Of a DNA stretch of 64,000 nt, positions 20,823 to 41,247 are shown piece by piece; position 1 is the first letter of the stretch, and the number at the start of each line of letters is the position of its first letter. Both the position numbers and the translations under genes were made by a program. The notes beneath the pieces were generated by a model. That model searched no databases. It had not been told where the DNA came from and was given only the letters and a program-made list of their open reading frames with translations. Origin of the DNA: Conexibacter sp. CPCC 205762 (GTDB lineage: Bacteria > Actinomycetota > Thermoleophilia > Solirubrobacterales > Solirubrobacteraceae); NCBI RefSeq assembly GCF_030646155.1, contig NZ_JAUTDN010000003.1, forward strand, positions 1 through 64,000, given 5' to 3'.

Positions 20823-21608
20823 ATGCCCCGACGGCGCCTTGCCGCGTCGCTGACGCTCCTCCTGCTGGCATCCGCCGCCGCGATCTGCGCGCCGGCTGCG
20901 TTCGCCGCCGCGCCCGTGCGGCTCGCCGTCGGCTTCGCGCCCGACGCCCGCCTCGGCGCGATGACACCGATCACGGCTGAGCTGCGGATCGACCCGCACA
21001 TCCGCCCCGCCCCGCTGACGAGCATGACGCTGCAGTACCCCGGCAGCCTCGGCATCACGACGAGCGGCCTCGGCCTCGCCGGCTGCCGGCGGCCGGCGGC
21101 GGACTTCCAGCTCGTCTCGATCGATGCGATCGGCCTCGCCGGCTGCTCGGCGAACGCGGTGATGGCGCTCGGCGACGCCCATGCGCAGGTGCGGATCGGG
21201 ACCTATCGCTTCGCCGCCACCGCGAAGGTGACTGTGCTGGCCGGCGTCTATGGCGACGACGGGCTCGGCCTCGTCGCCTTCGTCGACGGCATCAACCCGC
21301 TCGGCTACAAGCTCGCCTATCACGGCGTCGCCGGCAGCTCTCCAGCGCCGTTCGGCGGCCAGTTGGGGATCACGCTGCCGACGATCCCCGACCTGCCCGA
21401 CGACGCCAGCTTCGCGCTGACGCGGCTGCGCCTGTCGATCGGCGACCCGCGGATCGTCTACGTCGACCGCGGGAGACGCTTCCGGCCGGACGGGATCGAG
21501 CTGCCGCGGCGCTGCCCGCGCGGCGGCTTCCGCTTCCGCGCCGAGCTGGGCTTCGACGACGGCAGCAGCACAAAGGTCGAGACGCGCACCGCCTGCCCGC
21601 GCCGCTAG
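20823..21608 (+). CDS. Secreted protein of unknown function
   Basis: A 261-residue exported protein. A signal peptide (RRRLAASLTLLLLASAAA to AFA) is followed by a beta-rich mature part with ADFQLVSIDAIGLAGCSANA and a C-terminal CPRGGFRFRAELGFDDGSS region; four or five cysteines may form disulfides. The ATG abuts the stop of the upstream secreted-protein gene (TAGATG), so both are made from one transcript. It converges on murD2 with a 4-base overlap. No family is recognised. Confidence 0.7.
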   Translation: MPRRRLAASLTLLLLASAAAICAPAAFAAAPVRLAVGFAPDARLGAMTPITAELRIDPHIRPAPLTSMTLQYPGSLGITTSGLGLAGCRRPAADFQLVSIDAIGLAGCSANAVMALGDAHAQVRIGTYRFAATAKVTVLAGVYGDDGLGLVAFVDGINPLGYKLAYHGVAGSSPAPFGGQLGITLPTIPDLPDDASFALTRLRLSIGDPRIVYVDRGRRFRPDGIELPRRCPRGGFRFRAELGFDDGSSTKVETRTACPRR

Positions 21609-23119
21609 CCAGCCGCCTCGACGGCAGCGCGGAAGCGCTCGCCACGGGCGATGAAGTCGCGGTAGTGGTCGTAGCTGGGGGCGGCGGGCGAGAGCAGGAT
21701 GACGGCGGGCGCCTCCCGCGCGGCGTCGGAGGCGGACGGCGTCCCTCGCGCGGCGTCGGACGCGGGCGACGACGCGGCGAGCGCCGTCGCGAGGTCGCGC
21801 GCGAGCGCGACGGCCTCCTCCATCCCACCGGCCGCGACCGCGCGGGCCGCGGGCACGCCGGCCGCGCGCGCGGCGGCGACGACCCGCTCGCCGGTGCTCG
21901 GCAGGCCGACGACGGCGGCGCCGCGCGCCGCGAGCGCGCGGCCGAGCGGGGCGTAGTCCTGGCTGCGATCCTGCCCGCCGGCGAGCAGCACGACGGCGCG
22001 GTCGGCGTAGCTGTCGAGCGCCGCGATCGCCGACTCGGGCGTGGTCGAGATCGAGTCGTCGACGAACAGCAGCCCGTCGCGCTCGGCGACCGGCTCGAGC
22101 CGATGCGGCAGCGCGCGGAAGCCGTCGAGCGCGGCCGGCAGCGGCGGCAGCGCGATCCCGGCCGCCTCCAGCGCTGTCAGCGCGGTGCAGAGGTTGCGCG
22201 CGTTGTGCGCGCCGCGCAGCGGCAGCGCGGCGGTCGGGATCGCGACCTCGCCGCCCCCCGCGGACGCCGCGCCGGCCGCCGCACGCGCCTCGCCGCGCGC
22301 GACGCCATCGCCCGTCACGTGCCACCCGCCGGGTCCGCCGAACGGCGCCAGCTCGACACCGGCCCCGCGCGCGACGGTCGCGGCGCGCGCGTCGCCCGCG
22401 ATCCGCGCCGCCTCGCCGGCCGCCTCGCTCGCGCCCGTGTCGCCGACGACCGCGACGCGCACGCCCGGCAGCGTCAGCAGGCGCAGCTTGTCGGCCTGGT
22501 AGGCCTCCTCGGATCCGTGCCAGTCGACGTGCTCGCGGTAGAGGTTCGTCACGATCGCGACCTCGGTGCCGGTCGCCAGGTCGGCGATCTGGTAGCTCGA
22601 CAGCTCGATCACGGCCAGCTCGGCCGGCGGCGCGTCGAGCAGGTCGAGCGCCGGCACGCCGATGTTGCCGGCGAGGTCGGTGGCGACGCCGGCGGCGCGC
22701 GCGAGGTGGGCGATCAGCGCCGCGGTCGTGCTTTTGCCCTTCGTGCCGGTGACGCCGATCACGCCGCGGCCGCCGCGCTCGGCCAGCCACAGCGAGGTCG
22801 CGGTCGTCACCGGCGTGCCGCCGGCGCGCAGCGCGAACAGCTCCGGGCGGTGGATCGAGACGCCCGGCGAGCGCACGACCGCGTCGCATGCGCGCAGCGC
22901 CTCGACCGCCTCCGCGGCGCCGACCACGACCCGCGCGCCGACCGACTCGGCCAGCGCGCTCACGCCCGCGTCGACGCTCCCGTCCGCGCGCGCGTCGGCC
23001 GCGACGACGGCGATCCGCGCACGCGGCAGCCGGTTCGCGAGCTGCCGCGCGAAGGAGCTGATCTCGCGGCCGGCGCCCCAGACGCCGACGACCTTCCCGT
23101 CAAGCTCCGAGAAGCGCAC
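21605..23119 (-). CDS. murD2: UDP-MurNAc-L-Ala--L-glutamate ligase MurD2
   Basis: A 504-residue Mur ligase. The ATP loop GVTGTKGKSTTAALIAHLA is at about 122-140, with NIGVPALD, ELSSYQIADL and the carbamylated-Lys/Asn region NLYREHVDWHGSEEAYQADK. It differs from ordinary MurD in its N-terminal Rossmann part (VVGVWGAGREISSFARQL) and is coupled by a 20-base overlap to a MurL gene. MurD2 adds L-Glu rather than D-Glu to UDP-MurNAc-L-Ala in Xanthomonas, after which MurL inverts it. The start is GTG. A short Ser-Asp-Ala-Ala-Arg repeat lies near the C-terminus. Confidence 0.88.
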   Translation of the reverse strand: MRFSELDGKVVGVWGAGREISSFARQLANRLPRARIAVVAADARADGSVDAGVSALAESVGARVVVGAAEAVEALRACDAVVRSPGVSIHRPELFALRAGGTPVTTATSLWLAERGGRGVIGVTGTKGKSTTAALIAHLARAAGVATDLAGNIGVPALDLLDAPPAELAVIELSSYQIADLATGTEVAIVTNLYREHVDWHGSEEAYQADKLRLLTLPGVRVAVVGDTGASEAAGEAARIAGDARAATVARGAGVELAPFGGPGGWHVTGDGVARGEARAAAGAASAGGGEVAIPTAALPLRGAHNARNLCTALTALEAAGIALPPLPAALDGFRALPHRLEPVAERDGLLFVDDSISTTPESAIAALDSYADRAVVLLAGGQDRSQDYAPLGRALAARGAAVVGLPSTGERVVAAARAAGVPAARAVAAGGMEEAVALARDLATALAASSPASDAARGTPSASDAAREAPAVILLSPAAPSYDHYRDFIARGERFRAAVEAAG

Positions 23120-24500
23120 GGACGTGAGGCATGAGGGCGTCGGGGACGTCGTGCTCGTCGCTCAGCGCGAGCACCGCGTCGAGGTCGCCGTCGGCCGGCG
23201 GATGCGCCGGCAGCGCCTCGTCGACCAGCCGCCGCACGACCGCGTGGTCGCGCCACTGCTCCTGCGCGGCGATCAGGCGGATCGCGGCGAGGCTCTCCTG
23301 CTCCTCGCCGACGCACTCGAACGGCTTGTGGCCGCCGGTCGCGGTCAGCAGCGCGAAGCCGTCGTACTGCTGCGGCTCGGCGAGCAGGTCTCTGCCGAAC
23401 ACCTCGGCCAGATGCGCGGGCGCGTTGAAGGGCGCGAGGATCAGGTAGACGAAGCGGCACTTGGGACAGTCGCCGCACCACGATCTCGCCCGCAGCGCCG
23501 GGTCGATGCGGAAGATCGCGTTGCAGGAGGTGAAGACCGGGTGGTACTGCTCGAAGCGTGAGAAGGCGCGTGCGATCGCCAGCTCGGAGGCCGGCCGCAG
23601 CAGCGAGAAGAGGTCCGGCGGCGCGCCGACCTCGGCCAGCGCGGCGCGCAGCAGCCGCTCGGCGCGGAGGCTCTTGGAGAACTGGTGGTTGACGTCGATC
23701 CCGTCCCACGCGACGTTGCCCTGCGAGGCCGAGCGCTCGTTCGCGAGCGCGACCGCGTCGTAGTCGTGCAGCGCCGCCGTCAGCAGCGCGACGCAGGAGA
23801 CGATCGCCGTCACCGGCACGTGGCCGTTGAGCGCGCCGGCGCGGTTGAGCGCGCCGATCCCGGGGTCGAGTCTGCGCCGCGCGAGCAGGTGCGGCAGGCC
23901 GGCGACCTCGACGGTGCGGACGATCGGCGCGGCGTCGCCGATCGAGAACAGCGCCAGCTCGATCCCGGAGCGGCGGACCGCCTCCAGCGCGACGACCGAG
24001 TCCTTGCCGCCGCCGACCGGCACGAGCACTCTGCGCGGCGCCTGCGCGCGCGGGCGGGCGGCGCCGGGCGCGGCGGCGGCGCCCGCCTCGCCGGCCCACG
24101 TCCCGTCACGCGGAAAGACCGGACGCGGCAGCGCGTCGAGTCTGTTCGTGAAGGCGAACTCGCCGAGCCCCTCCGAGTAGAGCGCCTCCAGCAGCGCCGC
24201 GGCGGCCGGCCCCGGATGCGCGCCCTCCAGCGCGACCGCCGGCGGCGCGGCGGTCTTGAAGTAGCTGACGCCGGTGACCCAGTGCAGCAGCGCCAGCAGC
24301 CCATCGACGCGGGCGCGGTCGGCGTCGCTGACGCGCGTCCCCGCCGGCAGCGTGAAGCGCTCCTCGAACGCGATCGCGTCGTCGAGCGCGTAGCCCAGCG
24401 TCACGACGCCGTCGTCGCTCAGCGCGCGCGTCGTGAAGCGGAAGCTCGAGAACGCGGCGGGGTCGAAGCGCTCGGTCGGCTGCGCGGCGTCGGTGCTCAT
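23100..24500 (-). CDS. murL: UDP-MurNAc-L-Ala-L-Glu epimerase MurL
   Basis: A 466-residue protein matching the MurL family. A PP-loop-like ATP motif VLVPVGGGKDSVVALEAVRR is at 158-177, with the family block GHVPVTAIVSCVALLTAAL, ALANERSASQGNV, a WCGDCPKCRFVYLIL Cys motif and a GGHKPFECVG block. MurL uses ATP to epimerise the terminal L-Glu of UDP-MurNAc-L-Ala-L-Glu, replacing glutamate racemase. The ATG is chosen because GGAGAGCG lies directly before it; a TACGCT box 8 bases upstream may give a very short leader. It is followed by murD2 with a 20-base overlap. Confidence 0.88.
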   Translation of the reverse strand: MSTDAAQPTERFDPAAFSSFRFTTRALSDDGVVTLGYALDDAIAFEERFTLPAGTRVSDADRARVDGLLALLHWVTGVSYFKTAAPPAVALEGAHPGPAAAALLEALYSEGLGEFAFTNRLDALPRPVFPRDGTWAGEAGAAAAPGAARPRAQAPRRVLVPVGGGKDSVVALEAVRRSGIELALFSIGDAAPIVRTVEVAGLPHLLARRRLDPGIGALNRAGALNGHVPVTAIVSCVALLTAALHDYDAVALANERSASQGNVAWDGIDVNHQFSKSLRAERLLRAALAEVGAPPDLFSLLRPASELAIARAFSRFEQYHPVFTSCNAIFRIDPALRARSWCGDCPKCRFVYLILAPFNAPAHLAEVFGRDLLAEPQQYDGFALLTATGGHKPFECVGEEQESLAAIRLIAAQEQWRDHAVVRRLVDEALPAHPPADGDLDAVLALSDEHDVPDALMPHVRALLGA

Positions 24501-24580
24501 CGCTCTCCAGCGTAGTGGTCCCATCGCGCGGGTAGCGCTGTGACAGGACCCGCAGACGACCACCCGGCGAGGTGAGGCCG

Positions 24581-28612: not shown

Positions 28613-28692
28613 GGCGCCGTGTCCGCACGCGACCTCCGGACGTTTGCACCCCTGTGCGGGGTCAGACGTCCGGTCCTCCCGACTGGAGTCCG

Positions 28693-30162
28693 ATGAGCCC
28701 GCCCCGCCTCCTCCCCACCGCCGTCGTCGTCACGCTCGGCGCGGCGCTGTCGATCCTCGACACGACCGTCGTCACCGTCGCGCTGGAGACCCTCGGGCGC
28801 GAGCTGGGCGCCTCGCTGACGACGCTCCAGTGGGTCGCGACCGCCTATCTGCTCGCGCTCGCGACGACGATCCCGCTGACCGGCTGGGCAGCCGACCGCT
28901 TCGGCGCCCGCCGCCTCTTCCTCGCCGCCGTCGGCGCCTTCACCGCCGCCTCCGCGCTGGCCGGGCTGGCCTGGTCGGCGGAGGCGCTGATCGCCTTCCG
29001 CGTGCTGCAGGGCCTCGGCGGCGGGCTGATCATGCCGGCCGGGATCGTGCTCGTCGGCGAGGCGGCCGGACCGCAGCGGATGGCGCGCACGATGAGCGCG
29101 ATCGGGATCCCGCTGCTGGTCGCGCCGGCGCTCGGCCCGCTCGTCGGCGGCGCCCTGCTCGACGCCGTCTCGTGGCGCTGGGTCTTCCTCGTCAACCTCC
29201 CGATCGGCCTGCTCGTGCTGGCGCTCGCGACGCGGCTGCTGCCGCCGCAGGCGCCCCCGCGCCCGGCGCTCGCGCTCGACCGCCGCGGCCTGCTGCTGCT
29301 CGCGCCGGGACTCGTCGCGCTCGTCTACGGCCTCTCTCGCATCGCGGCCGACGGCGTCGCGGGAGGCGGCGCGGCGGCCGTCTCGCTGCTCGGCGTCGCG
29401 CTGACGCCGGCCGCGCTGCTCCCGCTCGCCACCGGCGCGCTGCTGCTGGCGGCGTTCACGCGGCACGCGCTGCGCACGCGCGACCCGCTGCTCGAGCTGC
29501 GACTGCTGCGCGAGCCGGCCGTCGGCGCCGCCGCGCTCGCGCTGCTGCTGCTCGGCGGCGCCTTCCTCGGCGCGCTCTTCCTGCTGCCGCTGGAGCTGCA
29601 GACGGCGCGCGGCGCGACGCCGCTTCAGACCGGCCTGCTGCTGCTCCCGCAGGGCGTCGCGGCGGCGCTCGCGATCGCGCTGGCGGGGCGGCTGTCCGAG
29701 CGCGTCGGCGCCGGCCGCATCGTGGCCGCCGGGCTGCTGCCGTTCGCGCTCGCGCTGCTGTGGCTGACGCGGATCGGCGCGAGCGCGCCGACGACCGAGC
29801 TGTGCGGAGCGCTGGCGCTGTTCGGGCTCGGGATGGGCGCGACGATGATGCCGGCGATGACCGCCGCCTACGCGCCGCTGCAGCGAGCCCAGGTCGCGCG
29901 CGCGACCGCGCTGCTGACCGTCGTCCAGCGGCTCGGCAGCTCGCTCGGCGCCGCGCTCGCGGCGGTCGCGCTGACGCACGGCCTCGGCGGCGCGAGCAGC
30001 GCGGACGCCACCGCCCGCGGCGCCGCCCCCGCATGCCTCGACGACGCCTTCGCGAGCGCGCTGCGCTGGCCGCTGCTGCTGGTCCTGCTTGCGCTCGGCC
30101 CGGCAGTCGTGCTGGCGGGCCGCAGACTCAGTAGAGCGCAGGCAGCGGCGCCGCGGCCGTGA
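28693..30162 (+). CDS. DHA2-family MFS drug exporter
   Basis: A 489-residue, 14-span exporter: LDTTVVTVALETLGRELG in span 1, WVATAYLLALATTIPLTGW, ADRFGARRLFLAAVG (motif A) and FRVLQGLGGGLIMPAG (antiporter motif C region). GGAG lies 6 bases before the ATG. It is divergent from the tetR gene and likely under the same operator. Its end overlaps the SIR2 gene convergently by 35 bases. Confidence 0.9.
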   Translation: MSPPRLLPTAVVVTLGAALSILDTTVVTVALETLGRELGASLTTLQWVATAYLLALATTIPLTGWAADRFGARRLFLAAVGAFTAASALAGLAWSAEALIAFRVLQGLGGGLIMPAGIVLVGEAAGPQRMARTMSAIGIPLLVAPALGPLVGGALLDAVSWRWVFLVNLPIGLLVLALATRLLPPQAPPRPALALDRRGLLLLAPGLVALVYGLSRIAADGVAGGGAAAVSLLGVALTPAALLPLATGALLLAAFTRHALRTRDPLLELRLLREPAVGAAALALLLLGGAFLGALFLLPLELQTARGATPLQTGLLLLPQGVAAALAIALAGRLSERVGAGRIVAAGLLPFALALLWLTRIGASAPTTELCGALALFGLGMGATMMPAMTAAYAPLQRAQVARATALLTVVQRLGSSLGAALAAVALTHGLGGASSADATARGAAPACLDDAFASALRWPLLLVLLALGPAVVLAGRRLSRAQAAAPRP

Positions 30163-32080
30163 CCGCGAGGCCGCGCCCGGAGCCGCCGGACAGCGCGCTC
30201 GCGGTCGCCGCGACCAGCCCCGCCTCGGGATCATGCGCAAGCGCGTCGAGTGCCGCCGCATCATCGGCCGCCGCCGCGCCGACGAGCGTGATCCGTCGCA
30301 ACTGGAGGCGGGAGCGCGTGCGCCGCGCCGCGTCGCCGAGGAGCCGCTCGCAGCGGCTGCGATCGCCGACGACGCGGGCGTGCTCGGCCAGCAGCACGAG
30401 CGTGTCGACGGCATTGAAGCTCGGAGCGCGACGACCGACCGTCCCGTCGAACCGCAGCACCTGCTCCAACCGTCCGGCAACGCCGCCGGGTCCGTGCTCG
30501 TGCCAGTCGAGCAACACGTTCGCGAGCTGCTCGTCGGCCAGATAGCTCGGATGCGCGATCCGCTCTCTCGCGAAGCGCACGAACGGATCGGAGAGCCGCT
30601 CGCGGGCGTCAGCGACACGCCCCTCGCAGAGTGCGAGCAGCGTGTCGTCGAGGTGCAGCCACGCAGCCCAGTTGAAGCCGATGTGCGGCATCCGCTCGCC
30701 GTAGGCGGCAACGACCTCGCGCCGACGCGCGGGCTGCCAGCGCTGGCGCTCGATCCACGCGAGGTTGTAGGCGGCCATCGCCTCCAGCAGCGGTTGCGGC
30801 CGTTCCCGCCGGCGCAGCTCGTCGAGCGCCGACTGCGCGTCGGCCGCGGCGGCAGTGAGCTGGCCGTCGCGCTTGAGCTTGGAGGAGAGCCGCACGAGCA
30901 GGTCGGCGCTGCCGGCGTGGCGAGAGCCGCGCAGGCGAGCGAGGTCGCGCTCGTCGCCTGGGCGCTGCGGCTGCGCGTCCAGCAGCGTCGCGTACATCCG
31001 CCACGGCTCGAACGCGTCTCGCACACGCGGCAGCCGCAGCGCGACCCGCAGCAGCGCGAGCTCCGCCGCACCCACCGGGCGGAGGTCGTAGCCGGCGCTG
31101 CGCAGCAGGCGCGACAGCGCACGCGGCCGCAGCACCCACGGATCGCTCAGCAACGCGCGGGCGTACGCGCGGCGCGCGTGGGCCGAACCGCGGAACTGAC
31201 CGTCGGCGACCGCCTTCAGCGACCAGGTCGCGACGAGCGGCGACACGGGCAGCGGGCCTGGATCGGGTGGTGCGACGAGCGGCGGCAGCGGACGGCTGTC
31301 AGATCCGGCGGAGAGCTGCTGCAGTGCCTGCGACGGCGCGCCGAGACGAACCATCGTCGCGGGGCCGAATCGCGCCTGCAGCTGCGCCGCGTTCGCCCGC
31401 CCGTGACCGGCGGCGTCGTCGAACTCCCACCACTCGACGCGCGTCGCGCCCGGCAGCCCCCGCAGCAGCGCCGGAACGACGTCGAGGTCGGCCCCGCGAT
31501 AGCCGAACAGCCGCACGTCGCGCCCGGCGCAGTCCTCCCGCAGCCGTTCGAGCCAGGTGCCGCCCAGCTCGCGCCAGACGTCGGTGGAGCGGAACAACAG
31601 CGGATAGTCGTGGACGCGCGGCTCGCGTGGCGGATCGCCGCTCTGCGGAAAGCTGCCGTGCGGCTTGAGCAGCAACAGCTCGCCCGGGCGCGCGACCGCG
31701 CCGGCCGGTGACGCCGTCGCCGCAATCACCCGGCACGGGATTCCGTCGATCGACGCCGCCCGCTCTATCAGCGTGTCGAAGTTGGTCGTCCAGACGCGCG
31801 CACCGGCGGCACCGAGCCGCGCGATCGCATGGTGGTTCGGCCCGGGCCGATGCGGCTCGCACTCCTGCCACATCGTCCGCCGCACCCGCTCGCGGGTCTC
31901 CTCGCGCCCGTCGTCGAGCGCTTGGAACAGCAGCTCGGGTGCGAACTGGTCGACGCCGATCTCGGCGCACGCGCCGGGGCCGACCAGCGGTCTCAGGAAG
32001 ATGTCACGGAGACGCTTGAAGTCGGGTGCTCCGCTCTCGACCGAGACGCCAGCACCGACGAACAGCGTCATGTCACTCAC
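30128..32080 (-). CDS. SIR2-domain protein with helical C-terminal region (possible anti-phage NADase)
   Basis: About 650 residues. Residues 5-230 form a SIR2_2-type NAD-binding domain: LFVGAGVSVESGAPD at 6-20, the catalytic-type WTTNFD with Asn100 and Asp102, LLLKPHGSF with His141, and RLFGYRGADLD at 190-200. The rest is alpha-helical with TPR-like repeats (MAAYNLAWIERQRW, WAAWLHLDDTLLALCEG) and no second catalytic motif. Related stand-alone SIR2 proteins in defence systems destroy NAD+ on infection; here that is inference. Start GTG 32080 is chosen because a GATACC box lies 6 bases upstream; an earlier GTG at 32095 is possible. Confidence 0.78.
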   Translation of the reverse strand: MSDMTLFVGAGVSVESGAPDFKRLRDIFLRPLVGPGACAEIGVDQFAPELLFQALDDGREETRERVRRTMWQECEPHRPGPNHHAIARLGAAGARVWTTNFDTLIERAASIDGIPCRVIAATASPAGAVARPGELLLLKPHGSFPQSGDPPREPRVHDYPLLFRSTDVWRELGGTWLERLREDCAGRDVRLFGYRGADLDVVPALLRGLPGATRVEWWEFDDAAGHGRANAAQLQARFGPATMVRLGAPSQALQQLSAGSDSRPLPPLVAPPDPGPLPVSPLVATWSLKAVADGQFRGSAHARRAYARALLSDPWVLRPRALSRLLRSAGYDLRPVGAAELALLRVALRLPRVRDAFEPWRMYATLLDAQPQRPGDERDLARLRGSRHAGSADLLVRLSSKLKRDGQLTAAAADAQSALDELRRRERPQPLLEAMAAYNLAWIERQRWQPARRREVVAAYGERMPHIGFNWAAWLHLDDTLLALCEGRVADARERLSDPFVRFARERIAHPSYLADEQLANVLLDWHEHGPGGVAGRLEQVLRFDGTVGRRAPSFNAVDTLVLLAEHARVVGDRSRCERLLGDAARRTRSRLQLRRITLVGAAAADDAAALDALAHDPEAGLVAATASALSGGSGRGLAVTAAAPLPALY

Positions 32081-32085
32081 GTTTC

Positions 32086-32091
32086 CGGTAT
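32086..32091 (-). promoter_or_regulatory. -10-like box of SIR2 gene
   Basis: GATACC on the minus strand lies 6 bases before GTG 32080. The same box occurs before the tetR at 28561. This suggests a leaderless start. Confidence 0.4.
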
Positions 32092-32155
32092 CCACGGGGG
32101 CGGCTGATCCTCGCAGGCGATGTCACACGACGCGCCGCCACGGCGTCAAGGAGTC

Positions 32156-32626
32156 ATGAGCATGCACACCACTCCCCGTATCGACCTCTTCTCCAGCGCC
32201 GCCGCGCCGATGGCCGCGATGGTGCGGCTGGAGGAGCGGATCGAGCTGGACGCGACGATCCGCGAGCTGGTCAAGCTGCGCGCCTCGATCGTCAACGGCT
32301 GCGCCTTCTGCATCGACATGCACTGGACCGAGGCGCGCAGAGCCGGCGAGTCCGAGCTGCGGCTGGCGCAGGTCGCCAGCTGGGATGAGAGCCCGTACTT
32401 CGACGCCCGCGAGCGGGCCGCGCTGGCGCTGACCGACGCGATCACCGCGGTCGGCGAGACGCGCGTTCCGGATCCGGTCTGGGAGGCCGCCGCCGAGCAG
32501 TTCGAGCAGGCCGAGCTGGCCAACCTCGTCGTGCAGATCGCGGCGATCAACTTCTGGAACCGCGCGGCGATCGCGGCCCGCTCGCTGCCGGCCAGCTGGG
32601 GCGCGGGCGCGGAGGCGACGGCATGA
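32156..32626 (+). CDS. Carboxymuconolactone decarboxylase/AhpD-like peroxidase
   Basis: A 156-residue AhpD-like protein: VRLEERIELDATIRELVKLRAS, then the redox CAFCIDMHWTEARRAGES motif with the CxxC pair and relay His, then ALALTDAITAVGE. Such proteins are alkylhydroperoxidases. AAGGAG lies upstream; a second ATG two codons later (32162) has better spacing. The stop overlaps the next gene (ATGA), so it is coupled to the FAD oxidase. Confidence 0.9.
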   Translation: MSMHTTPRIDLFSSAAAPMAAMVRLEERIELDATIRELVKLRASIVNGCAFCIDMHWTEARRAGESELRLAQVASWDESPYFDARERAALALTDAITAVGETRVPDPVWEAAAEQFEQAELANLVVQIAAINFWNRAAIAARSLPASWGAGAEATA

Positions 32627-36527: not shown

Positions 36528-36551
36528 GTGAGCGCCGTCGCCGATGCTCAC
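36528..36551. promoter_or_regulatory. Inverted repeat before exporter gene
   Basis: GTGAGC and GCTCAC flank 12 bases just before the ATG of the third exporter. A further GTGAGC half-site lies about 20 bases upstream. It could be an operator; the regulator is unknown. Confidence 0.35.
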
Positions 36552-36554
36552 GGC

Positions 36555-38027
36555 ATGAGCACCACGGCCCCCACTCCTCTCGCCACCCCGCAGCCGTCGT
36601 CGCGCGCCTACCCGTCGCTGCGAGCGGCCTGGATCCCGCTCGCCGCCCTCTGCCTCGCCTTCTTCGTCGAGATGGTCGACAACACGCTGCTGTCGATCGC
36701 CCTGCCGACGATCGGCCGCGACCTCGGCAGCGGCACGACCGGCCTGCAGTGGGTCACCGGCGCGTACTCGCTGACCTTCGGCGGCCTGCTCCTCACCGCC
36801 GGCTCGATCGCCGACCGCTTCGGGCGGCGGCGCGTCCTGCTGGTCGGGCTGGGCGTGTTCGGCGCGCTGAGCCTCTGCGTCGTCTTCGTCCACTCCGCGG
36901 GCGAGCTGATCGCGCTGCGCGCCGGTCTCGGCGTCGCAGCCGCGGCGATGGCGCCGATCACCAACTCGCTCGTCTTCCGCCTCTTCGACGACAAGACGCT
37001 GCGCATGCGCGCGATGACCGTGATGATCGTCGTCGGCATGTCGGGGTTCGTCCTCGGCCCGCTGCTCGGCGGCACCGCGCTGGCGCACGTGAGCTGGGAG
37101 TGGCTGCTCGTCGTCAACGCCCCGATCGCGCTGATCGCCTGCATCGGCGTCCGCCTCGGCGTCGCGGCCGACCGCGCGGAGGACCTGACCGGCGACAGGC
37201 TCGACCTGCCCGGCGCCGCCCTCAGCGTCGCGACGATCGGCCTCGCCTGCTACTCGCTCACCAGCGGCGTCGAGCACGGCTGGGCCGCGGCCGGCACGCT
37301 CGCCGCGATCGCCGGCGCGATCGCCGCCGGCATCGCCTTCGTGCGCCACGAGCGCCGCAGCGCGTCGCCGATGCTCGACCTCAGCCTCTTCTCCAACGGC
37401 ACCGTCCGCGGCGCCACGATCGCGCAGGCGGGCACGTCGATCGCGATGGCCAGCGTGATGTTCGGGCTGATCCTGCACTTCCAGTACGCCTACGGCTGGT
37501 CCCCGGTGCGGGCCGGCCTCGCGAACCTGCCGATCATCGTGACGATGCTGCTCGCGACCCCGGTCTCCGAGGGCCTCGCGAAGCGGTTCGGTCACCGCGT
37601 CGCCTGCCTCGTCGGCGCCGCCCTGCTCGCCGGCTCGCTGCTCGGGCTCTCGTGGGGCGTCTCCCACGGGTATCTCGCGATCGCCGTCTCGATGGTCTTC
37701 CTGACGATCGGCCTGCGGACGATCATGACGATCTGCGCCGTGGCCCTGGTCGAGGCGATGCCGGCGAACCGCACGTCGATCGGCACCGCGCTGAACGACA
37801 CCGCCCAGGAGGTCGGCACGAGCGTCGGCACCGCCGTCGTCGGCACGCTGATCGCCGTCCTGGTCACGACGTCGCTGCCCGCCGGCACGTGGAGCCACGA
37901 GCTCGTGACCTCGTTCTTCCACGGCGAGCGGATCAGCTACGGCGTCCTCGCGATCGTCGTCGGGCTGATCGCCGGCTACGGCGCCCACACGCTCACCGAC
38001 TCGCGCTCCACCGAGGAGCCGGCGTGA
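36555..38027 (+). CDS. DHA2-family MFS exporter
   Basis: A 490-residue, 14-span exporter: FFVEMVDNTLLSIALPTIG, LQWVTGAYSLTFGGLLLTAG and ADRFGRRRVLLVGLGVFG. It is the third DHA2 gene within 12 kb but has its own upstream region with a GTGAGC...GCTCAC inverted repeat (36528-36551). The ATG at 36555 has no clear ribosome site; a GTG at 36528 is in frame. It converges on the BTAD regulator gene with one base between stops. Confidence 0.88.
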   Translation: MSTTAPTPLATPQPSSRAYPSLRAAWIPLAALCLAFFVEMVDNTLLSIALPTIGRDLGSGTTGLQWVTGAYSLTFGGLLLTAGSIADRFGRRRVLLVGLGVFGALSLCVVFVHSAGELIALRAGLGVAAAAMAPITNSLVFRLFDDKTLRMRAMTVMIVVGMSGFVLGPLLGGTALAHVSWEWLLVVNAPIALIACIGVRLGVAADRAEDLTGDRLDLPGAALSVATIGLACYSLTSGVEHGWAAAGTLAAIAGAIAAGIAFVRHERRSASPMLDLSLFSNGTVRGATIAQAGTSIAMASVMFGLILHFQYAYGWSPVRAGLANLPIIVTMLLATPVSEGLAKRFGHRVACLVGAALLAGSLLGLSWGVSHGYLAIAVSMVFLTIGLRTIMTICAVALVEAMPANRTSIGTALNDTAQEVGTSVGTAVVGTLIAVLVTTSLPAGTWSHELVTSFFHGERISYGVLAIVVGLIAGYGAHTLTDSRSTEEPA

Positions 38028-38028
38028 G

Positions 38029-41000
38029 TCAGGCGCCGACGGCCGCCGGGTCGAGCCGCCGCAGGGCCGCGTCGCGCCCCTGCCAGCGGCCTGCGCTGAA
38101 CGCGGCGTCGTAGGCGTCGACCCCGAGCGTCTCCCGCAGGTGCGCGCTCAGGCGGGCGATGTCGGGGTCGGTGCGGTCCTCGGCGCCGCGCAGGCGGGCG
38201 GCCGCGCCGAGGATCTCGGCGGCCGCGGCCGCGTCTCCGGCGCGGCTCGCGTAGGCGGCGGCCGCGACGCCGACGAGCGCGGCGATCGGCAGGTCCTCGG
38301 TCCCGACCGCCGCGGGGTAGGCGACCGCCAGGTGATCGCGCGCCGTCTCCAGGTCGCCGTCGTCGACGGCGATCAGGATCGCGGAGGCGCGGACGCCCGC
38401 CTCGAGGTGACCGCGCTCCGGCCGGCCGGGCTTCACACGCGCGACCGTCCTGAGCGCGGCGGCGATCAGCTCGCGAGCCTCGTCGGCGTGCCCGAGGTGC
38501 CAGCTGATGCGGGCCAGGAACGCCCCGGTGAACGCCGACTCGACGCTGCCGACGTCGGTCGCGCCGCGCGAGCGGCGGGCGTAGTCGCGGGCGCCCTTGA
38601 CGTCGCCCCCGCGCCAGCGGACGCCGGCGATGTCGAGCAGCAGCCGCGCGTTGTCGCTGTCGGCGCCGACCTCCTGGAGCAGCCCGCGCGCCTCCTCCAG
38701 CGCCGCCGCGGCGCCCTCGAGGTCGTCCTCGAGCATCCGCAGGCTGGCGAGCGCGCTCAGCGTCGTCGCCAGGCCCCAGCGCTCGCCGAGCGCGCGGAAG
38801 GCGACGAGCGCTTCCTCGACGTGGCGCCGGACGCCTTCGACGTCGCCGTCGTTCTCGGCCGCCTGCGCGAGTGCGAGCGGGACGGTCGCACGGACCCACG
38901 CGTCGTCGCTCGCCCGCGCGCGAACGAAGAGCCGCTCGGCGCGCGAACGATCCGACGAGAACCAGGCCATGATCGGCGCGGCGGCGGCCGCCAGCGGACG
39001 CGGCGACAGGTCCAGCTCGTCGAGGTCGTCGAGCACCGCCGTGAAGTCGTGGTCGACGTCGTCGGTCAGGGCGTCGCCCTCCAGCAGCAGCAGGCTCTCG
39101 GCGATGAGGCGGTCGAGCGGGTCGGCGGCTCCGGGGACGGCGTGCGCCACGCGGACCGCCGCCGTCGCGTCGTTGGGGCTGCCGGACAGCACCCAGAACC
39201 AAGCGAGCGAGACCGCCAGGCGCAGGGCGCTGCGCGCGTCGCCGGCGTCGGCGAACCAGCGCAGCGCGGCGAGCAGGTTGTCGCGCTCGGCCTGGAGACG
39301 GCGGAACCACGGCAGCTGCTCGGGCCCGCGCAGGTACGCGTCGGCCTCGTCGGCCAGCGCGGCGAAGAAGCGGGCGTGCGCGGTGCGCGTGGGGGACAGC
39401 TCGCGCTGCTCGGAGAGCCGGTCGATGCCGTACTCGCGGATCGTCTCGAGCATCCGGTAGCGCGGTGCGTCGCGGTCGACGAGGACCAGCAGCGAGCGGT
39501 CGACGAGCGACGCGAGCAGGTCGAGCACCGCCTCGGCGTCGAGGCCGTCGTCGGCGCAGACCGCGGCGGCGCTCGCCGGCGTGACGCCGGCGGGGAAGAC
39601 GGCCACGCGCCGGGCGACGAGCCGCTCGTCCTCGGTCAGCAGCTCCCAGCTCCAGTCGACGACGGCGCGGAGCGTCTGCTGACGCGGCAGCGCGGCGCGG
39701 CTGCCGCCGGTGAGCAGGCGGAAGCGGTCGTCCAGGCGGGCGGCGATCTGGGGCGCGGGCAGGGACCGCAGGCGCGCCGCGGCGAGCTCGATCGCCAACG
39801 GCAGGCCGTCGAGGCGCCGGCAGATCTCCACGACGCTGGCGACGGTCGCGGCGTCGACCGCGAACCCCGGCGCGGCGTCGGCGGCGCGGTCGGCGAACAG
39901 GCGCACCGCGGGGTGCTCGAGCGCGGTCTGCGCGTCGGCGTCGGCCGGGGGCAGGCCCAGCGGCGGGACCATCTCCAGCCGCTCGCCGGCGATGCCGAGC
40001 GGCTCGCGGCTGGTCGCGACGATCCGCAGCCGCGGGCAGTGCGCGAGCAGCTGGTCGGCGAGCACGGCCACTGCGGCGACGAGGTGCTCGCAGTTGTCGA
40101 GCACGAGGACGGTCTCGCGCTCGGCCAGGACGTCGAGCAGATGCGCCACCGGGTCGCTGTCGGGCGCTGCGCCCGCGCCGGCGGACTGCCGCAGCAGGCG
40201 CGCCTCGCGCAGGCCGAGCGCCCCGAGGACGCCCGTGCCGACGTCGTGCGGATCGCTGATCGTCGCGAGCTCGACCATCCAGACGCCGTCCGCGGCCCGG
40301 CCGACCTGACGCCCCGCGACCTCCGCGGCCAGGCGCGTCTTGCCGGCGCCGCCGGGACCGATCAGGGTCACGAGGCGGTGCTCGGCGAGGACCGTGTCGA
40401 GGCGCTCGACCTCCTCGGCGCGGCCGACGAAGCTCGTGAGCGAGAAGCGCAGGTTCGTGCGGCGGGTCCCAGTGGGGGCGGCGGCCGCCGGCACGGGTGC
40501 GGCGGGCGCCTCAGCGGCAGTGCCGTCGATGACGGCGAGGTGGACGGCGCGGAGGTCGGCGGAGGGGACTGCGCCGAGCTCGGCGTCGAGCCGGACGCGG
40601 ATCTGCTCGTAGGCGTCGAACGCCTCTGCCGCGCGACCCGCCGCCGCCAGCGCCCGCATCCGCTGCGCGGCGAGCCGCTCGTGGAGCGGGTGGGCGGCCG
40701 TCAGCCGGTCGAGCTCGGTGACCAGTTCGGCGCCGCCGCCCAGCAGCAGGTCCGCCTCGATGCGGTCGGTCGTCGCGGCCAGGCGCAGCGCCTCGAGGCG
40801 GTCGGCCGCCTCGGATGCGAACCGCTGGGCGGTCGCGAGCTCGCCGAGCGCCGGGCCGCGCCAGCTCGCGAGCGCGTCGCGCAGGAGACGCGCCGCGTCC
40901 GCGACCTCTCCAGCACGCAGCGCCGCCGCACCCGCCCGCGCAGCCGCCTCGAACGCGAGCGCGTCGACGTCGGCGGGCGCGAGCTCCAGCCGGTAGCCCG

Positions 41001-41247
41001 CGGCGCCGGAGCGGACCGCGTCCGATCCCAGCGCGCGCCGCAGCCGCGAGACCAGCGCCTGCAGCGCGTGGCCGGCGTCGGCCGGCGGCGTCTCCTCCCA
41101 GATCGCGTCGATCAGCGCGCGCGGGCTGACCTCCCGCCCCGCATCGAGCGCAAGCCGCACCAGCAGCGCCCGCACGCGACCGCCCGCGACGGGCACGAGG
41201 CGCTCATCGCGCCTGACCTCCAAGGCTCCCAGAACGCCCACGCGCAC
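38029..41247 (-). CDS. AfsR/BTAD-family transcriptional regulator with NB-ARC ATPase and TPR region
   Basis: A 1072-residue signal-integrating regulator. In order: an OmpR-type winged helix (about 1-90, VGVLGALEVRRDERLVPVAG), a BTAD domain (about 95-245, LDAYEQ-like FDAYEQIRVRLDAELG), an NB-ARC/AAA ATPase (Walker A LIGPGGAGKTRLAAEVAG near 300, TVLVLDNCEHL as Walker B, ATSREPLGIAGERL), and a long helical TPR-like C-terminus. Such regulators switch on secondary metabolism or exporters. Start codon GTG. Its N-terminus overlaps the end of the beta-helix gene by 44 bases. No biosynthetic cluster is seen here; the convergent exporter is a possible target. Confidence 0.92.
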   Translation of the reverse strand: MRVGVLGALEVRRDERLVPVAGGRVRALLVRLALDAGREVSPRALIDAIWEETPPADAGHALQALVSRLRRALGSDAVRSGAAGYRLELAPADVDALAFEAAARAGAAALRAGEVADAARLLRDALASWRGPALGELATAQRFASEAADRLEALRLAATTDRIEADLLLGGGAELVTELDRLTAAHPLHERLAAQRMRALAAAGRAAEAFDAYEQIRVRLDAELGAVPSADLRAVHLAVIDGTAAEAPAAPVPAAAAPTGTRRTNLRFSLTSFVGRAEEVERLDTVLAEHRLVTLIGPGGAGKTRLAAEVAGRQVGRAADGVWMVELATISDPHDVGTGVLGALGLREARLLRQSAGAGAAPDSDPVAHLLDVLAERETVLVLDNCEHLVAAVAVLADQLLAHCPRLRIVATSREPLGIAGERLEMVPPLGLPPADADAQTALEHPAVRLFADRAADAAPGFAVDAATVASVVEICRRLDGLPLAIELAAARLRSLPAPQIAARLDDRFRLLTGGSRAALPRQQTLRAVVDWSWELLTEDERLVARRVAVFPAGVTPASAAAVCADDGLDAEAVLDLLASLVDRSLLVLVDRDAPRYRMLETIREYGIDRLSEQRELSPTRTAHARFFAALADEADAYLRGPEQLPWFRRLQAERDNLLAALRWFADAGDARSALRLAVSLAWFWVLSGSPNDATAAVRVAHAVPGAADPLDRLIAESLLLLEGDALTDDVDHDFTAVLDDLDELDLSPRPLAAAAAPIMAWFSSDRSRAERLFVRARASDDAWVRATVPLALAQAAENDGDVEGVRRHVEEALVAFRALGERWGLATTLSALASLRMLEDDLEGAAAALEEARGLLQEVGADSDNARLLLDIAGVRWRGGDVKGARDYARRSRGATDVGSVESAFTGAFLARISWHLGHADEARELIAAALRTVARVKPGRPERGHLEAGVRASAILIAVDDGDLETARDHLAVAYPAAVGTEDLPIAALVGVAAAAYASRAGDAAAAAEILGAAARLRGAEDRTDPDIARLSAHLRETLGVDAYDAAFSAGRWQGRDAALRRLDPAAVGA

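Follow-up and report, generated by a model that had tools for sequence, protein, structure and literature searches.

Gene content and local setting of the SIR2-TPR locus

The analyzed window is the initial 64 kb of a contig of 354 kb, which belongs to a 6.1-Mb genome assembled in 116 contigs; its GC content is ~74%. It contains a minus-strand gene for a protein combining a SIR2 domain with a helical, TPR-like C-terminal region, referred to as SIR2-TPR in the following (Table 1). The open frame and the SIR2_2 protein claimed by the original prediction are real: the frame spans 655 codons plus stop without interruption, its codon-position GC of 0.79/0.55/0.88 is coding-like on the minus strand, and SIR2_2 (PF13289) is matched with 27.3 bits (E 4.3e-06) against a Pfam gathering score of 24.5. 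Translation could start at a GTG at 32095 or at a GTG at 32080; all residue numbers are counted from the former and would be lower by 5 with the latter. A 540-residue frame at 30089–31711 on the opposite strand was taken to be a high-GC artefact.

Table 1 Coordinates and basis of the features of the SIR2-TPR gene, and genomes carrying its homologues
Feature	Position in the window or genome	Strand	Basis
SIR2-TPR gene	30128..32095	-	Open frame; SIR2_2 above Pfam cut-off; coding-like codon positions
SIR2_2 domain, ~residues 6-225	31421..32080	-	Pfam, PADLOC, NCBIfam and PDB sequence matches; Foldseek to ThsA, KomC and SIR2/HerA
GAGVS nucleotide-binding motif, residues 14-18	32042..32056	-	Sequence; five-row alignment
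TTNFD motif, residues 103-107, with N105 and D107	31775..31789	-	Sequence; alignment to DSR2 N133 and D135
HG motif, H146-G147 (PHG context)	31655..31660	-	Sequence; H146 on DSR2 H171
C-terminal helical (TPR-like) region, ~residues 286-655, proposed sensor	30131..31240	-	Structure models
SIR2-TPR homologue L020	G492		
SIR2-TPR homologue L032	Streptomyces sp. SolWspMP-5a-2		
SIR2-TPR homologue L033	Actinomycetota MAG		
SIR2-TPR homologue L034	Symbioplanes lichenis		

SIR2-TPR and a convergent MFS gene (28654–30162) overlap at their 3' ends. On the 5' side, SIR2-TPR faces genes for a carboxymuconolactone decarboxylase/AhpD-type protein (frame 32120–32626) and a FAD-linked oxidase. With a GC3 of 0.880, SIR2-TPR shows the lowest value among the 32 genes compared; the 31 other window genes, which we selected from the gene calls, have a mean of 0.953 (sd 0.022, minimum 0.902).

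The SIR2 domain and its catalytic residues

The G-A-G-x-S motif is invariant across an alignment of the window protein with four homologues (L020, L032, L033 and L034). The catalytic-type residues described as intact by the original prediction (Asn100, Asp102 and His141) correspond to N105, D107 and H146 in our numbering and align by phmmer with N133, D135 and H171 of DSR2 (numbers from a 1005-residue chain). In a DSR2 study, the N133A/H171A double mutant is the inactive control (PMC10973363), and the Asn and Asp of TTNxD are reported to be required for immunity by PaAvs5 (PMC12931631). A sequence scan of the window protein revealed six cysteines and neither a CxxC zinc pair nor a Walker A or GK[ST] motif. 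Without the CxxC pair, the protein lacks the zinc site found in deacylase sirtuins. When the structure model was compared using Foldseek, the antiphage SIR2 proteins ThsA, KomC and SIR2/HerA ranked first, and FAM118B and Avs5 also matched the SIR2 part. By analogy, the SIR2_2 domain is expected to be an NADase.

An alternative explanation is that the protein is a regulatory or housekeeping sirtuin, which uses NAD+ for deacylation or ADP-ribosylation and selects its substrate via the TPR part. The metabolic and transport neighbors in the window, the metabolic ones around L033 and weak NCBIfam matches to deacylase models (E 1.3e-04 to 5.9e-04) would be in line with this, but the scores of these models are far below their cut-offs (~20 versus 221–320 bits) and the lacking zinc-binding cysteine pairs led us to reject a NAD-dependent deacylase of the CobB/Sir2 type. 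Considering also the leading rank of antiphage SIR2s in Foldseek and the absence of the gene from 100 relatives, we regard a housekeeping role as quite unlikely.

The C-terminal helical region

Built from four sequences, the window protein's AlphaFold2 model is of low confidence (pLDDT 53.7, pTM 0.38) and is all-helical from ~residue 286 onward, over ~370 residues. Various TPR proteins follow the SIR2 matches of this model in Foldseek, which is weak for the C-terminal half due to the low model confidence. The model of the homologue L032 is more confident, with a pLDDT of ~85–93 over most of residues 370–640, and displays a row of helix hairpins. Using VIA-align, its C-terminal region matched chains that we take to be APC5 (Z ~24), domain III of MalT (Z 22.7, 317 aligned, rmsd 4.1) as well as Rap and NprR (Z ~22), in a list from which the absence of a family does not imply its exclusion. 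From these comparisons, the C-terminal region of L032 is confidently modeled as a TPR superhelix. The window protein has no TPR call in Pfam, and the sole Pfam TPR line across the five family members has an E-value of 6; the models of both proteins nevertheless support the TPR-like helices that had been proposed from sequence. In the window protein, these helices probably represent a sensor of infection.

A small family with the same layout

A search of genomes sampled across the phylum yielded the homologue in G492 (L020), and an alignment of the window protein with this homologue brought three further loci (L032, L033 and L034). With 649–667 residues, depending on the starts we chose, the four proteins are similar in length to the window protein. 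They are mutually 43–52% identical across the whole chain, share the same layout and all end with an F-x-C tail, which the window protein does not have. BLAST aligned the window protein to the four in the SIR2 half only (32–37% identity, E 3.7e-23 to 1.5e-13), where the sequences are clearly homologous. In a tree of SIR2 domains, it groups with the four (support 92/90) on a long branch of 1.21 changes per column. By sequence, it is thus a divergent relative of these proteins. The original prediction had described a stand-alone protein of a type that could not be matched; this holds insofar as no named system matches beyond the SIR2 part, but given the relatives of the same layout, the protein belongs to a small family and is not alone.

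As MAFFT forces an end-to-end alignment, we compared the C-terminal half separately. It was not found by hmmsearch with a profile of the four relatives. Smith–Waterman comparison with each of the four resulted in z-scores of 6.1–7.5, with none of 300 shuffles scoring as high. The same is true for the 267 control frames, of which at most 266 are independent, since the coordinates of the top one (L066_2975_4504-) identify it as part of the window gene. Ten other SIR2 proteins scored 40–96, compared to 138–189 for the four. An hhalign match (E 2.5e-26, span 5–594) is attributed mainly to the SIR2 half. Altogether, the sequence comparisons give a mixed picture of homology in the C-terminal half, with weaker support than in the SIR2 half.

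The divergence of the window protein raises the question of whether it is a decaying or diverged remnant, in which the SIR2 half is kept and the C-terminal sensor no longer works. The long branch, the missing F-x-C tail and a C-terminal half that escapes the family profile would be consistent with decay. However, a frame of 655 uninterrupted codons with coding-like codon positions and all motifs intact argues against it, and we consider this scenario very unlikely.

Distribution across genomes, plasmids and phages

At an E-value of 0.001, only the own genome matched the window protein among 101 genomes (own plus 100 relatives), and the single protein gave no match when used to scan the species genomes. 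In the class sample, 12/399 genomes matched at E 0.01, own included; the 11 others are partial matches, some to canonical sirtuins or apparently by chance. The phylum sample contained 9/396 matching genomes at E 0.001, again including the own; among the other eight, only G492 showed a strong match with the same layout. The family profile matched 10/396 genomes of the phylum sample and 3/399 of the class sample (own included). Apart from the own genome and G492, which score by construction because both are rows of the profile, these matches cover the SIR2 part only. Within the class of G492, 1/24 genomes matched, namely G492 itself.

No match for the window, L020 or L032 proteins was obtained by tblastn in 72,556 plasmid records, and tblastn against phage sequences as well as a search of viral contigs with the family alignment gave nothing useful; two viral-contig matches are proteins of 1047 and 1066 residues, aligned in the SIR2 part only.

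Among the places fetched around relatives of the MFS and FAD-oxidase genes, a single one, in G005, is syntenic. Here, the two MFS genes are conserved at identities of 74% and 60%, followed by a different gene, and no SIR2 gene was called as a match to the window within the syntenic 19-kb stretch; the argument for an empty site thus comes from one genome. The low GC3 and the absence of the gene from relatives as well as from the syntenic G005 site fit a horizontal gain.

Neighborhoods of the window gene and its homologues

The genes surrounding SIR2-TPR in the window look metabolic or transport-related. Among ten neighbors, PADLOC gave no match at 0.001 except for a weak one to TRIP13 (E 0.0002) in a large gene at 38029–41247, which from its sequence appears to encode a regulator; this agrees with the earlier statement that no known defence gene adjoins. 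A gene at 36528–38027 (+) encodes an MFS transporter matching the Tet(43) tetracycline efflux model with 776.9 bits (E 8.9e-234), below the cut-off of 999. Elsewhere in the window, a MurL-like gene at 23100–24563 (-) was observed in this actinobacterium-like genome (NCBIfam MurL_Xanthmoales, 430.9 bits, E 4.2e-129, below the cut-off of 700); the start of the adjoining frame at 21605–23119 (-) looks Mur ligase-like by eye.

The homologues are found in different surroundings. The L034 homologue is oriented divergently from a DSR1-like gene (L034 2771–6238, minus strand) for a 1155-residue SIR2 protein (PADLOC Dsr1, E 1.2e-60; weak DUF4020 match). A stretch in which GC3 drops to ~0.6–0.7, and which harbors an ImmA/IrrE-like peptidase gene (CapP, 1.5e-15), has L020 at its end. 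Convergent to the G492 gene, two overlapping genes are located at L020 13856–14782 and 14754–16349 (+); one is near NA37 (23.9 versus a Pfam cut-off of 24.6 bits) and the other is matchless. Two genes lie between L032 and an nSTAND1-WD40 gene, and the neighbors of L033 look metabolic. The sole non-SIR2 match between the neighbors of the five loci is a TetR-like pair, so no partner gene is suggested. No neighbor recurs across the five loci, which supports the single-gene layout assumed from the window.

The patchy presence of the gene and the low-GC3 stretch around the G492 homologue could also reflect a SIR2 toxin involved in a different type of conflict, acting in a toxin–antitoxin pair, in plasmid exclusion or as a mobile element's own guard. 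Since no recurring neighbor offers itself as a possible antitoxin and the plasmid records contain no match, we judge this explanation unlikely.

Comparison with known SIR2 systems

Matches of the window protein in Pfam, NCBIfam and PADLOC 2.0.0 (2023) are confined to its SIR2 part.

The protein resembles DSR2 and DSR1 in being a single protein with an N-terminal SIR2 domain carrying the same Asn and His and a long helical C-terminus, and DSR2 chains came first for the L032 model in Foldseek, at low TM-scores of 0.17–0.25. However, DSR2 has ~1005 residues and the DSR1 models ~1250, compared to 655 here, and the sequence matches to DSR2 end with the SIR2 part. Identity with DSR1 was rejected, as the NCBIfam Dsr1 equivalog cut-off is missed by far (22.2 versus 1400 bits, residues 10–130 only). 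With Avs5, described as having a SIR2 domain with GAGxS and TTNxD and C-terminal repeats including TPR (PMC12931631), the protein shares both motifs, but TPR directly follows SIR2; with neither Walker A/GK[ST] nor a Pfam match to an NTPase family such as STAND, Avs5 (SIR2-STAND) was ruled out.

ThsA is the best PADLOC match (SIR2 residues 8–148, E 1e-08) and the best Foldseek match of the window model, but the C-terminus of the window protein is helical and TPR-like. Thoeris was dismissed, there being no PADLOC match to a ThsB TIR partner among the ten neighbors; likewise, SIR2-HerA and SIR2-pAgo were discarded, with no HerA or pAgo PADLOC match among these and no recurring neighbor. KomC of Kongming, the best PDB profile match by sequence (E 3.9e-08), shares the SIR2 NADase domain, but consists of SIR2 alone (264 residues) and works with KomB, whereas the window protein has a fused C-terminal region of 370 residues. 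Finally, the PADLOC single-gene candidate PDC-S65, represented by models of 503 and 592 positions, matches with E 2.6e-07 and 4.2e-07, but only at residues 81–148 and with nothing in the C-terminal region; our literature search found no paper on it. The SIR2-TPR layout was found neither in the literature, judged by titles and the starts of abstracts, nor in Pfam, NCBIfam or PADLOC. Overall, the protein appears to be an uncommon variant of the DSR/Avs5/Thoeris kind.

Proposed function

We consider it fairly probable that the gene product is an anti-phage effector working as a single protein, combining a SIR2 NADase with its own TPR sensor; we infer NADase activity, gating and phage protection from the likeness to DSR2, Avs5 and ThsA. 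In the resting cell, the SIR2_2 domain would be an autoinhibited, inactive NAD+ hydrolase. Binding of a phage ligand or of one made during infection to the C-terminal TPR superhelix might then alter how the protein packs or assembles, upon which the SIR2 domains would destroy NAD+ and cause growth arrest of the infected cell.

This reading is based on the SIR2_2 match above cut-off with Asn and His aligned to DSR2, the lack of CxxC and Walker A motifs, the antiphage SIR2s leading in Foldseek, the TPR superhelix of L032 and four relatives of the same layout, joined to the window protein in the tree. Further points are the absence from 100 relatives and from the G005 place, the lowest GC3 of the window genes compared, the DSR1-like gene beside L034 and the low-GC3 stretch of L020. 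Counted against it are the metabolic or transport-looking neighbors of the window gene and the metabolic-looking ones of L033, the lack of a PADLOC defence gene among ten neighbors save the weak TRIP13 match, the C-terminal half missed by the family profile, the low-confidence model and the restriction of the empty-site argument to a single genome.

As a more tentative and rather doubtful extension, the family could constitute a new single-gene defence type, so far from Actinomycetota only, whose SIR2 NADase would be controlled directly by a MalT/RRNPP-like TPR receptor, with no ATPase step in between; the signal might be a peptide or phage protein in the groove of the superhelix. If the proposed function is right, the protein would add a compact effector–sensor design to the SIR2 defence kind, in which the enzyme is joined directly to a TPR receptor and does without both the STAND ATPase found in Avs5 and the partner genes seen in Thoeris. 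The library models that we used label such proteins by their SIR2 part only. The homologues in named Streptomyces and Symbioplanes strains make the family testable in laboratory actinomycetes.

Further SIR2 lineages

Two other SIR2 groups were observed among the loci. Proteins of ~1050 residues at L026 1985–5170, L028 10829–13960, L035 6938–10081 and L036 436–3636, two of them on viral contigs, form one supported clade in the SIR2 tree and have a C-terminal half that is PIWI-like by eye. A separate lineage of ~600–670 residues (frames as called) comprises L021 8935–10779, L023 8563–10362, L024 9595–11430 and L027 9078–11093. Its C-terminal half, where compared (L017, L018 and L040), does not resemble that of the window protein, and the lineage stems from four actinobacterial genomes with a tree support of 100/99.
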